Source: Tangfeifania diversioriginum
GTDB taxonomy: Bacteria; Bacteroidota; Bacteroidia; Bacteroidales; Prolixibacteraceae
DNA: 64,000 nucleotides
Direction: 5' to 3'
Assembly: GCF_900141875.1 (NCBI RefSeq)
Contig: NZ_FQZE01000009.1
Coordinates: 1-64,000 of the forward strand
This document shows, piece after piece, positions 15,554-18,296 of the stretch. Position 1 is the stretch's first letter, and each line of letters opens with the position of its first letter. The notes beneath the pieces were generated by a model. The model saw only the letters and a program-made list of their open reading frames with translations. It had not been told where the DNA came from and made no database searches. Both the position numbers and the translations under genes were made by a program.

Positions 15554-16141
15554 TTAGTCGATTAAGTTGTTAAAATACTCTGCCTTTTCCAGGTCAGTTT
15601 TCGATAATTTATTGTCGCGTAATAATAACAGAACCTTTTTGTAATTAAGCGCATGTTCCTCAATTTCATCGTTTTTAACGGTATGCGAACCATGTACAAT
15701 ATAAGGCGGCAGGTAGTTCATCCGGCATAAATTGGCCGATTGCCTGAAAGGTACAAGAAACTGGTTCATTGTATAATGGTTGCGTCCTTCGGATGAATAA
15801 ACCACTTTGCCCCCTCCGGTTGAAATTACCGACAAAACACTTTTCCCTTCCAGTGCCCGGCCGTGCATTCCATACGCAAAGCCATGTTCCAGTACGAGGT
15901 CCATCCATTCTTTTAGAAGCGCCGGGGCATTGTACCAGTAAAAAGGATGGTGCCACACAATAATATCGTGTTGAGTCAGAAGTCGCTGCTCTTTTTTTAC
16001 ATCGATAAAAAAATCGGGGTAGTTTTCATATAAATCGTTAAATGTTATGCCATCCAGATTTTTTACTGCGTTAATCAGTTTTTTATTTATGCGCGATTTC
16101 TGAAATGCGGGGTGTGCAAATAGTATAAGTATTTTTTTCAT
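15554..16141 (-). CDS. NAD(P)H oxidoreductase, KefF/MdaB-like flavodoxin-fold protein
   Basis: The 195-residue protein is a flavodoxin-like NAD(P)H:quinone oxidoreductase: ILILFAHPAFQKSRINKKLI at the N-terminus, IVWHHPFYWYNAPALLKEWMD and VLEHGFAYG near residues 60-90, and SVISTGGGKVVYSSEGRN in the middle. The WHPFYWY and GFAYG segments are typical of the KefF/KefG group, which bind FMN and activate KefC/KefB. It is immediately upstream of the antiporter gene in one operon. The 559-base gap upstream (16142-16700) contains a separate plus-strand transcription unit. Confidence 0.9.
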   Translation of the reverse strand: MKKILILFAHPAFQKSRINKKLINAVKNLDGITFNDLYENYPDFFIDVKKEQRLLTQHDIIVWHHPFYWYNAPALLKEWMDLVLEHGFAYGMHGRALEGKSVLSVISTGGGKVVYSSEGRNHYTMNQFLVPFRQSANLCRMNYLPPYIVHGSHTVKNDEIEEHALNYKKVLLLLRDNKLSKTDLEKAEYFNNLID

Positions 16142-16378: not shown

Positions 16379-16410
16379 TTTGCAAATGCCATTGCTTACC
16401 GTTAAATTTG
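16379..16410 (+). promoter_or_regulatory. Bacteroidota-type promoter in front of the candidate ncRNA
   Basis: TTTG at 16379-16382, 20-base spacer, TAAATTTG at 16403-16410: a full match to TTTG-N(17-23)-TAnnTTTG. The expected start of transcription is ~16415-16418. No reading frame of credible size follows before the U-run at 16636. The gap sequence 16142-16378 upstream holds nothing else I can name. Confidence 0.6.
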
Positions 16411-16415
16411 AGGTG

Positions 16416-16643
16416 TAAAAAGAGAGTTCTTTGATTGAGACAAGATATTATCCGCATTGATTCAACTTTTGGTAAACTCAACAGAATATTTTAAACCGAG
16501 TTAGCTCAACGGTTGTAAAAACAGGCCTTGTAGTTCCGAGCAATCGGGATGAGTCGAAAGACCGGTGGAAGTTTGAACAACCAGGCGCTCAAATCCTGTC
16601 ATACAGGGGTTTTACGCAAACGGAATCGATGCGGATTTTTTTT
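16416..16643 (+). ncRNA. Candidate structured non-coding RNA closed by a 14-bp terminal stem
   Basis: Positions 16450-16463 pair with 16623-16636 (14 of 14 positions, one G-U), directly followed by eight U. Inside lie further helices: 16494-16498 with 16510-16514; 16515-16520 (GTAAAA) with 16610-16615; 16525-16531 with 16580-16586 (one mismatch); two hairpins with GNRA tetraloops at 16534-16549 (loop GCAA) and 16553-16562 (loop GAAA); and CCTGT-cat-ACAGG at 16595-16607. A consensus promoter lies just upstream. The end-to-end pairing is like that of 6S RNA and many other structured RNAs, but I do not recognise the family: it lacks the marks of tmRNA, RNase P RNA and SRP RNA. The start is inferred from the promoter; a mature form may begin near 16450. 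Confidence 0.55.
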
Positions 16644-16700
16644 GTAATCCACTTCAACTTTTTTCAAACAAATAGTTGGGGGCGTCTTTTTTTACTGGAT

Positions 16701-18296
16701 TTACTCAGGAAGGAACTTTTTAGTGATCAGGAAAAGCAGGAGCAATCCGCTCATAAACAACGATATTCGTGCAATGTAATCACCATATTTTACGTAGAAA
16801 GTAATCTCATTACTGGAATTGAGCGTGCCGTTTATGGCATCTTCCGTCCACCATTCGGTTGTTTGAAGTAAATCGCCACGCTGGTTTATAAAGGCAGAAA
16901 TTCCTGTATTGGCCGAACGGGCAATGCTTCGGCGCGATTCGATGGCCCTTAGCCGGGCAAACGAAAGGTGTTGTTTGTAACCGGGCGTATTTCGCCACCA
17001 TCCGTCGTTGGTAATAATTACAATTATCCCGGCACCTTTTTCCACGTATTTTGTAAGGTATTCGCCAAAAATCGATTCGTAACAGATAACCGGCGCCACT
17101 TCCCAATTATTTTTTAATTTGAAATTTGTAGGTTCTTCCTGCCGTCCCAGGCTGCCGGTTGTTCCGCCCAGGTCGAAAACCAAATCGCTTAAAAATCCGA
17201 GGTATTTCATAAACGGCATTTTTTCAACACCAACTACCAGTATCGATTTGTGATAGGTTTGCTCTTGTCCGTTTTTGCCTATAAAAACAGCTGAATTGAA
17301 TACGTCGTAAATCATGCCGTTTCTGTGCCTGGCTGTGGAAGTCGCACTTTCGGCATCAGGATATACCTGGCTGGTTGATGCCCCGAATAATAGTTCAGCT
17401 TTGGGGAAATTTCGTAACCATTGTTGTAATTGTCTGAACTGATAGTTGTAGGTAATTTGTTCTTCGTTCCAGTCGGGGTAACGTTCAAAAAGTGTTTCGG
17501 GGCCAATGACCAAATCGGTTTGATCATCGGTTTGAGTGCTGGCAAGGCGAATGAATTTTTCCAGTTTTTCATTTTCAGCCTCCTGGTCGTACCGCTCGGA
17601 GTACGGATCAATATTGGGCTGAACCACAACAATGTTCATCGGATTTTCTTTTTCAGTATAAGAATTGTATGCCGAAACAGAAATGATAACAGGCACCACG
17701 AGGAACAAAACGAGGCCGGAAAGCGGATAAAATATTTTCCATACTGAAGCTTTACTGGTTATCAGTTTCAGAACGTTGAACAGCAGAATATTAATGAGTA
17801 AAACCCAGAGTGTTCCTCCTAAAACTCCTGTGTATTCGTACCATTGTACCATTTTAATGTTGTTGGCAAAGCCGTTTCCTAAATTCAGCCAGGGCCATTC
17901 AATGTCCCAGTGAAAATGAAAATACTCGAAAGAAATCCAGAAAACAATGAGTGACAGAAAAGCTAAGTTTGGTTTAAAACGTCTGAAGGCAACATGAGCC
18001 AGCCACCACACTACCGACATTAAAAATGAGTTGGCCACGATGGCCAGAATTGCCCCGGCCATTGTGGCATAAGCAATCCACCATGTTGTTATCCCATTCC
18101 AAATCAGGAAAGCAATCAGGGCATGTCCCCAGAACGACACACTTCGGTAGGAGTTTCTGTTGTCAATAAAAAACTGATTGAGAAAAAGCAGAGGAATGAA
18201 TGCAAAAAACAGGGTCCATCCGGGAAACCCCAGCCATGCGAGACTAAGTAATATACCTGAGGAGGCGGAAAGCCCCAGTCGGAAAATTCGTGACAT
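16701..18296 (-). CDS. lnt: Apolipoprotein N-acyltransferase
   Basis: The 531-residue inner-membrane enzyme has about seven helices in its first ~220 residues and the carbon-nitrogen hydrolase domain after that. The catalytic triad is visible: glutamate in DLVIGPETLFERYP, lysine in YHKSILVVGVEKMPF, and cysteine in APVICYESIFGEY. It transfers an acyl chain to the N-terminal diacylglyceryl cysteine of lipoproteins in the periplasm, which suits a genome rich in lipoproteins. The PFGEYVP loop common in proteobacteria reads VGVEKMPF here. The gene starts 1 base after the end of the metallophosphatase gene, so the three genes 19966-16701 are likely one operon. The stop lies ~60 bases from the end of the convergent candidate ncRNA. 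Confidence 0.92.
   Translation of the reverse strand: MSRIFRLGLSASSGILLSLAWLGFPGWTLFFAFIPLLFLNQFFIDNRNSYRSVSFWGHALIAFLIWNGITTWWIAYATMAGAILAIVANSFLMSVVWWLAHVAFRRFKPNLAFLSLIVFWISFEYFHFHWDIEWPWLNLGNGFANNIKMVQWYEYTGVLGGTLWVLLINILLFNVLKLITSKASVWKIFYPLSGLVLFLVVPVIISVSAYNSYTEKENPMNIVVVQPNIDPYSERYDQEAENEKLEKFIRLASTQTDDQTDLVIGPETLFERYPDWNEEQITYNYQFRQLQQWLRNFPKAELLFGASTSQVYPDAESATSTARHRNGMIYDVFNSAVFIGKNGQEQTYHKSILVVGVEKMPFMKYLGFLSDLVFDLGGTTGSLGRQEEPTNFKLKNNWEVAPVICYESIFGEYLTKYVEKGAGIIVIITNDGWWRNTPGYKQHLSFARLRAIESRRSIARSANTGISAFINQRGDLLQTTEWWTEDAINGTLNSSNEITFYVKYGDYIARISLFMSGLLLLFLITKKFLPE

Follow-up and report, generated by a model that had tools for sequence, protein, structure and literature searches.

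A predicted noncoding transcription unit between a KefF-like gene and lnt

The window, the whole stretch of 64,000 nucleotides from Tangfeifania diversioriginum that was analyzed, contains an intergenic gap of 559 bases between a KefF-like gene and lnt, both on the minus strand. A Pfam scan of three flanking genes gave Na/H exchanger-TrkA_N, Flavodoxin_2, and Lnt. An earlier note, made from the sequence of this DNA alone, had described a noncoding unit on the plus strand of the gap, opposite to both neighbors, and this arrangement was confirmed. The features are as follows.

15554-16141, minus strand: KefF-like gene (Pfam Flavodoxin_2)
16379-16382, plus strand: -33 element TTTG of a Bacteroidota housekeeping promoter (sequence, family alignment, promoter score)
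16403-16410, plus strand: -7 element TAAATTTG of the same promoter (consensus TAnnTTTG; 20-base spacer from the -33 element; sequence, family alignment)
16426-16434, plus strand: leader element GTTCTTTGA, resembling boxA and located 17 bases upstream of the 6S core (enriched in homologs and 16S leaders)
16450-16643, plus strand: very probable 6S RNA, from the closing stem to the end of the U-run (RF01693 and RF01685 matches, R1 covariance model, fold)
16450-16463, plus strand: closing stem P1, 5' arm (fold, covariation; 11 of 14 pairs tested)
16469-16479, plus strand: P2, 5' arm (UUGGUAAACUC), paired with 16607-16619
16469-16479 and just 3' of it, plus strand: predicted pRNA template
16480-16497, plus strand: central bubble, 5' strand (column counts; the AACA at its start is nearly invariant in 97 homologs)
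16498-16590, plus strand: terminal stem and apical region, with P3 (GAG/CUC and GCU/GGC; comparative)
16510-16521 with 16571-16583, plus strand: P4, part of the terminal stem (comparative)
16533-16550, plus strand: apical hairpin with GCAA loop at 16540-16543 (predicted fold; stem covaries, loop sequence not conserved)
16553-16562, plus strand: apical hairpin with GAAA loop at 16556-16559 (predicted fold; loop sequence not conserved)
16591-16606, plus strand: 3' strand of the central bubble; its first nine bases are AAAUCCUGU
16607-16619, plus strand: P2, 3' arm (GGGUUUUACGCAA; covariation)
16623-16636, plus strand: closing stem P1, 3' arm (fold, covariation; 11 of 14 pairs tested)
16636-16643, plus strand: U-run, an intrinsic-terminator-like end that uses the 6S closing stem (sequence, homologs)
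16701-18296, minus strand: lnt (Pfam Lnt)

The promoter claimed earlier could be read directly, as TTTG, a spacer of 20 bases, and TAAATTTG, the latter fitting the consensus TAnnTTTG quoted in PMC7366714. It was conserved in the window's family, the Prolixibacteraceae: 24 of the 30 homologs scored at least 9/10 for TTTG/TAnnTTTG, which base-shuffled upstream regions did in 3.8% of cases on average and in 13% at most. Among loci from outside the family, 16/89 reached this score versus 2.3% of shuffled upstream regions. The start of the precursor is probably near 16416. A sigma-70 promoter scan missed the unit, all four of its promoter-like sites being on the other strand, and a simple terminator scan found no terminator and did not pick up the unit.

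The ends of the unit pair over 14 positions with one G-U (16450-16463 with 16623-16636), and the unit closes with eight U, the first of them being also part of the closing stem; both had been pointed out in the earlier note. The fold of 16440-16650 had a minimum free energy of -63.2 kcal/mol, compared with a mean of -46.2 for shuffled sequences (z = -3.76), and none of 200 shuffles was as stable. The prediction of a structured noncoding RNA of about 190 to 230 nt agrees with the sequence analysis.

The RNA matches two Rfam families labeled 6S

At the Rfam cutoffs, the sole match in the window was a tRNA, and the 6S locus was not reported. With relaxed thresholds, the 559-base gap gave seven matches, five of which had E values of at least 0.5. 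The other two were end to end, one with RF01693 (Bacteroidales-1) at 16450-16642 (50.1 bits, E = 3.1e-7, 10 bits short of the gathering cutoff of 60 bits) and one with RF01685 (6S-Flavo) at 16476-16612 (42.2 bits, E = 3.3e-5, below the gathering cutoff of 85 bits). Both families carry a 6S label, RF01693 being described in Rfam as "6S-Bacteroidales RNA suggested," so the RNA is not "previously unnamed" as the earlier note had it. The window aligned with RF01693 over positions 1 to 179, with the shared blocks CCGCAUUGAUU, AAACUCA, ACCGAG, and CUCAAAUC, and with RF01685 over the whole model, the loci aligned having a 5' bubble edge of the AAACUCAACA type. The two families also differ from the window, since the Rfam consensus of RF01693 leaves unpaired the closing stem that covaries in the homologs analyzed here, and the apical part of 6S-Flavo is shorter. 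The canonical 6S model RF00013 had no match in the host genome at E values up to 1; in a control run, it was positive in 6 of 14 control genomes, and Bacteroides ihuae was not among the six. The comparison with Rfam that the earlier note had proposed favored RF01693 and RF01685, below their cutoffs, but not RF00013.

Nothing was found in support of the retron-like or wholly new RNA that had also been considered, and there was no reverse transcriptase among the three flanking genes scanned with Pfam. The D-arm-like and T-arm-like strings GAGTTAGCTCAACGG and GCTCAAATCC were also considered as signs of a tRNA-like or tmRNA-like RNA, a reading that was rejected, since ARAGORN found only a tRNA-Lys at 1405-1478.

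A DNA similarity search gave matches in 35/61 genomes, corresponding to 35/37 of the window's family and 0/24 of the others. The family, Prolixibacteraceae, belongs to Marinilabiliales in NCBI taxonomy, which agrees with the lineage in which the earlier note had proposed to look for homologs. Thirty homologs from the family were aligned (A1), and this alignment was the source of a covariance model, R1. With R1, 39 of 41 genomes of the family had one strong match, and G017 and G527 had none. In the host's order, 166/198 genomes matched, with one match each except in G189 (two), and 32 had no match; among the matches listed, lengths were about 160 to 210 bases. R1 labels its matches as model positions "1-190" even for a short remnant, and because of this, completeness is indicated by match length and not by the label. 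In a draw from the phylum, 45/296 genomes matched and 251 did not; R1 therefore does not reach most of the phylum. Two genomes showed additional matches: G525 had a weak one (E = 0.16) beside its strong one, and the second match in G189 (60.7 bits, E = 5.7e-10) was perhaps a second gene or due to a mixed assembly. As is characteristic of the 6S class, the gene was present in one copy in the host genome and was a widespread single gene in the clade. The earlier note had staked its reading on homologs with covarying stems; homologs were found and their stems covary (see below), and the reading was not refuted.

When homologous loci were submitted to Rfam, 3 of 10 Prolixibacteraceae relatives (L008, L012, and L018) and 0 of 10 loci from other families of the host's order passed the RF01693 cutoff, so that 17/20 were missed at the Rfam cutoffs. 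Among 16 loci from the phylum draw, five passed RF01685 (L093, L097, L099, L100, and L104, all matched by R1), two passed RF01693, and nine passed neither. The two RF01693-passing loci, L095 (184 bits) and L108 (167 bits), came from two congeneric genomes of the host's order and were matched by R1 with E values of 4e-15 and 4e-13. Because R1, built only from Prolixibacteraceae sequences, recovers loci passing each model, it links RF01693 and RF01685. The two stand in Rfam 15 without a clan and were listed as separate motifs by Weinberg et al. in 2010 (PMC2864571).

A closing stem, a central bubble, and a terminal stem are conserved

In A1, 97.6% of cells could pair, and 19/47 pairs changed on both sides, a result reached by 0/500 shuffles. 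P2, for example, changed among the 30 homologs from U-A to C-G in 5 and from C-G to U-A in 8. In a second alignment of 67 loci made by the model (A2), both-sided changes that kept the pairing were found in 40/45 pairs. A2 follows the structure by construction and shuffling takes no account of relatedness, so a simple tree-based null of the R-scape kind was used. Against it, A1 had one significant pair, outside the structure, and no pair of the structure was significant; A2 had 10 significant pairs, 9 in the structure and 1 adjacent; and A3, with 97 loci, had 18, of which 17 were in the structure and 1 was adjacent. When the 97 loci were aligned with MAFFT without regard to structure, 78% of cells paired and 10 pairs were significant. 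Five of these were drawn pairs, and by coordinates, three of the other five extended P4, one was shifted by one base in P2, and one flanked P3.

Comparison of relatives shows a closing stem P1-P2, a central bubble, a terminal stem P3-P4, and apical hairpins. The long closing stem of paired ends that marks the 6S class is present, with some P1 and P2 pairs significant in A3 against the tree-based null. The central bubble is present comparatively, whereas the window sequence, in its lowest-energy fold, lacks P2 and closes the bubble with two hairpins. On its 5' strand, AAACUCAACA was nearly invariant across 97 sequences; on the 3' strand, the commonest pattern was NANNCNUGU, with A2 in 84, C5 in 83, U7 in 86, and G8 in 68 of the 97. 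An imitation of the -7 box (TAnnTTTG) by NANNCNUGU was considered and is a suggestion at most, as the pattern shares A2, T7, and G8 but not T5-T6.

The two adjacent hairpins with GNRA loops of the earlier note were found in the predicted fold, but these loops are not conserved, with UUCG and others in relatives. Covariation in the GAAA hairpin was found in 1 of 4 pairs in A1 and in 2 of 2 in A2. The pairings of the unit are kept and covary in homologs, and the CCTGTcatACAGG hairpin is part of an alternative fold in competition with P2. Overall, the end-to-end matches with RF01693 and RF01685, the homologs, and the covariation argue that 6S RNA, the best idea offered earlier, is the most likely assignment.

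An alternative fold and a predicted pRNA

In a second state, CUC would pair with GAG on the 5' side and AAUCCU with GGGGUU on the 3' side. This state was formable in nearly all 30 relatives, with pairing in 98.9% of cells for the 5' side and in 99.3% for five of six pairs of the 3' side. When four sequences were folded, the two states were 1.2 to 3.5 kcal/mol apart and 0.7 to 6.7 kcal/mol above the best fold. In other bacteria, 6S RNA is described as a mimic of an open promoter, with a pRNA of 14 to 20 nt copied from the central bubble (PMC3847290). The pRNA start is predicted here near 16482, and the pRNA would be copied from the 5' strand (GUUGAGUUUAC...), which is nearly invariant.

Whether a pRNA could drive a switch to the 3' hairpin was examined by blocking at least 12 nucleotides on the 5' strand of the bubble, in imitation of a pRNA. 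Blocking removed P2 from the ensemble, in which P2 was already minor, and left the 3' hairpin of the window sequence almost unchanged, with 5.6 to 5.8 expected pairs. The switch was not clear in the window sequence, as the hairpin formed already without pRNA. Because P2 is already minor and the 3' hairpin hardly shifts, we consider the switch possible but not demonstrated.

The 6S gene lies between zapA and rny in many relatives outside the family

The gene neighborhood was compared in 87 loci from other families of the order, 27 of which came from the R1 search and 60 of which were fetched with about 300 bases of flank. A ZapA gene lay shortly upstream on the same strand in 72/87 and the RNase Y gene (rny) lay downstream in 62/87, fractions that lean towards close relatives because the loci were chosen mostly from better-scoring matches. 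In the class family f124, in which four of eight loci pass RF01685, zapA was found in 8/8 and the RNase Y gene in 6/8, a location behind zapA that the window does not share. For 14 further class and phylum loci, the numbers were 7 and 11, respectively. Neither gene was found beside the two RF01693-passing loci examined (one genus) or beside the 6S gene in any of 30 loci of the window's family. Pfam confirmed 5/5 ZapA proteins tested and one RNase Y; the rest were identified by a profile of those five and by one query. The order in Escherichia coli K-12 is zapA, 41 bases, ssrS, and fau, and a linkage of zapA and ssrS has been reported in beta- and gammaproteobacteria (PMC7641849). No description of a 6S-zapA linkage in Bacteroidota was found in the freely accessible papers searched, and one may be in print elsewhere.

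These data bear on whether the RNA could be a member of a structured family (Bacteroidales-1) that is 6S-like in shape only, for instance, an antisense or a protein-sequestering small RNA. RF00013 does not match, the 6S role is a prediction here, and the wording in Rfam is "suggested," all of which would fit such an RNA. However, R1 also recovers 6S-Flavo loci, the synteny with zapA is that of E. coli 6S, the host genome has no RF00013-type 6S, and 6S RNA and pRNAs have been reported in Bacteroides thetaiotaomicron (PMC7366714). We consider a function other than that of 6S RNA to be very unlikely.

In the host genome, zapA and rny are neighbors about 100 bases apart without 6S between them. 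From the sequences, the Prolixibacteraceae 6S gene appears to have moved away from the zapA-rny site and to have its own promoter. Its neighbors vary between Prolixibacteraceae relatives. In 5 of 10 family relatives (L006, L015, L018, L023, and L026), tRNA genes were observed within about 1 kb upstream of 6S on the opposite strand.

A possible remnant at the zapA-rny site

We analyzed 31 zapA-rny gaps of the window's family (L251 and L253 to L282), with lengths of 79 to 158 bases. Most folded into a hairpin with a U-run after it and with ends like those of the closing stem of 6S RNA. CCGY...GYGG ends were found in 23/31 gaps versus about 1% of shuffled gaps, and stricter ends plus a U-run were found in 16/31, counts that are not independent because the genomes are related. 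R1 gave nine weak matches at E values up to 1 in these 31 loci, the best in L262 (24.5 bits). Eight of the nine were inside the gap on the zapA strand, and the one in L266 was elsewhere and was not counted as a fossil; R1 alignments were inspected for three of the weak gap matches. We read the hairpin as a possible fossil, that is, a 6S copy that may have been reduced to its terminator after the gene moved; a chance likeness between terminators is also possible.

Two observations would fit a cis-acting leader or terminator element of a neighboring gene: the stem and U-run resemble a terminator, and many loci of other families are flanked by zapA and rny in the same orientation. In the window, however, both neighbors are on the other strand and the unit has its own conserved promoter. 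Moreover, the bubble sequences are strongly conserved, and most zapA-rny sites of the family keep a terminator-sized hairpin without the rest. A cis-acting element is, in our judgment, extremely improbable, and an independent 6S gene is the preferred reading.

A boxA-like motif precedes the 6S core

The leader carries GTTCTTTGA, which we take to be boxA. Motifs of this type, GTTC[AT]T[TA], were present in the 70 bases preceding the 6S core in 22/30 loci of the family, 64/87 loci of other families, and 8/8 loci of f124, mostly 20 to 30 bases before the core, compared with 36/2321 (1.6%) of control windows from family and other loci. The exact GTTCTTTGAA occurred in 2/30, 27/87, and 0/8 of these loci, respectively, versus 0/2321 controls. 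Five of 14 class and phylum loci had the motif; the two RF01693-passing loci, from one genus of another family, had no such motif upstream, unlike the window.

As expected of a boxA bound by NusB-S10, the motif was shared with rRNA leaders. We collected 12 16S leaders from the host genome and other loci, leaving out six loci with inner 16S pieces. GTTC[AT]TT was present in 8/12, up to 350 bases upstream (two of the four leaders without it covered fewer than 200 bases), and in 24/454 (5.3%) of 350-base control windows. In the host 16S leader (L032), AGAGTTCTTT lies about 116 bases before the 16S start, and the same string is in the 6S leader at 16423-16432. GTTC[AT]TT stands in a stable-RNA leader in both cases, with the difference that here it precedes a regulatory RNA of 200 nt and the NusB-S10 site is putative. 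The binding of boxA by NusB-S10 is covered in a review (PMC10931766). In the freely accessible papers searched, we did not find a boxA-like motif described before the 6S core; such a description may be in print elsewhere.

Only 3 of the 31 zapA-rny gaps without 6S in the family carry the motif, which therefore goes with 6S and not with zapA in this family. The combination of the -7 box and the motif occurred 38 times genome-wide versus 22 times for the reversed pattern and was rejected as a unit that is specific by itself.

There is a considerable chance, a little short of even, that the motif, rather than being a NusB-S10 site, is a processing site, a part of the mature 5' end, or an early transcribed sequence preferred by these promoters. 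Its position is tight, some loci (both RF01693-passing ones among them) lack it, and it is partly paired in the precursor model, in which 16429-16431 are almost always paired. Against this, the same motif recurs in 16S leaders far above the control frequency, it is no common companion of promoters in the genome (38 versus 22), and it has been kept where the gene moved (22/30) yet is rare in the gaps left behind.

Discussion

We conclude from the sequence comparisons that the locus is very probably the Prolixibacteraceae 6S RNA gene, a single-copy gene with its own promoter that would encode a polymerase-holding RNA with a boxA-like leader. Its likeness to E. coli ssrS (RF00013) lies in a similar length (183 bases in E. 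coli), in an overall layout with a closing stem, a bubble, and a terminal loop, as has been described for 6S RNA (PMC3847290), and in zapA, which is directly upstream of ssrS as in most loci of other families. The E. coli gene differs in that its model has no match in the host genome, its gap behind zapA lacks a motif of the pattern used here, and fau, not rny, is the downstream gene. This kind of RNA is already known, because 6S-Flavo, Bacteroidales-1, and B. thetaiotaomicron 6S RNA were described previously: in B. thetaiotaomicron, 6S RNA and pRNAs were reported by sequencing, with an earlier prediction cited (Ryan et al. 2020; PMC7366714), and detection of 6S RNA has been reported for Flavobacterium psychrophilum (PMC9723704). 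The searches made found no description of three points: the leader motif, the relocation of the gene, and the connection between RF01693 and RF01685.

By analogy with other bacteria, the RNA would work as follows. Transcription would start from the TTTG/TAnnTTTG promoter, which is seen as sequence. The RNA folds, as the comparison of relatives shows, into a long hairpin with the closing stem P1-P2, the central bubble, and the terminal stem. The bubble may imitate an open promoter, and the housekeeping holoenzyme would then be sequestered by the RNA under nutrient exhaustion and released once it copies a short pRNA from the bubble. The pRNA, starting near 16482, could open P2 and favor the competing 3' hairpin AAUCCU/GGGGUU. 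In the leader, the boxA-like element may recruit NusB-S10 while the RNA is being made, as happens on rRNA, and NusB-S10 bound there could resist Rho and help the distant ends of the RNA meet.

A broader proposal is that, across much of Bacteroidota, 6S RNA is an rRNA-like stable transcript whose leader boxA loads NusB-S10 on the polymerase and that, in the Prolixibacteraceae, the gene left the zapA-rny site together with its boxA, gained a promoter, and left a terminator fossil behind. As a whole, we hold this proposal tentatively and regard it as possible, though on balance doubtful.

The recovery of RF01693 and RF01685 loci by one model argues for one homologous 6S family, and the linkage to zapA in both Bacteroidota and E. 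coli suggests an old gene neighborhood for 6S. 6S RNA is an expected housekeeping gene, and it was missed at the Rfam cutoffs in most of the relatives tested. If the boxA-like leader is functional, it would be a direct connection between the machinery of rRNA antitermination and 6S RNA. If the broader proposal is true, the output of 6S RNA would depend on free ribosomal protein S10, because boxA loads NusB-S10, and ribosome supply would thereby be tied to polymerase sequestration.
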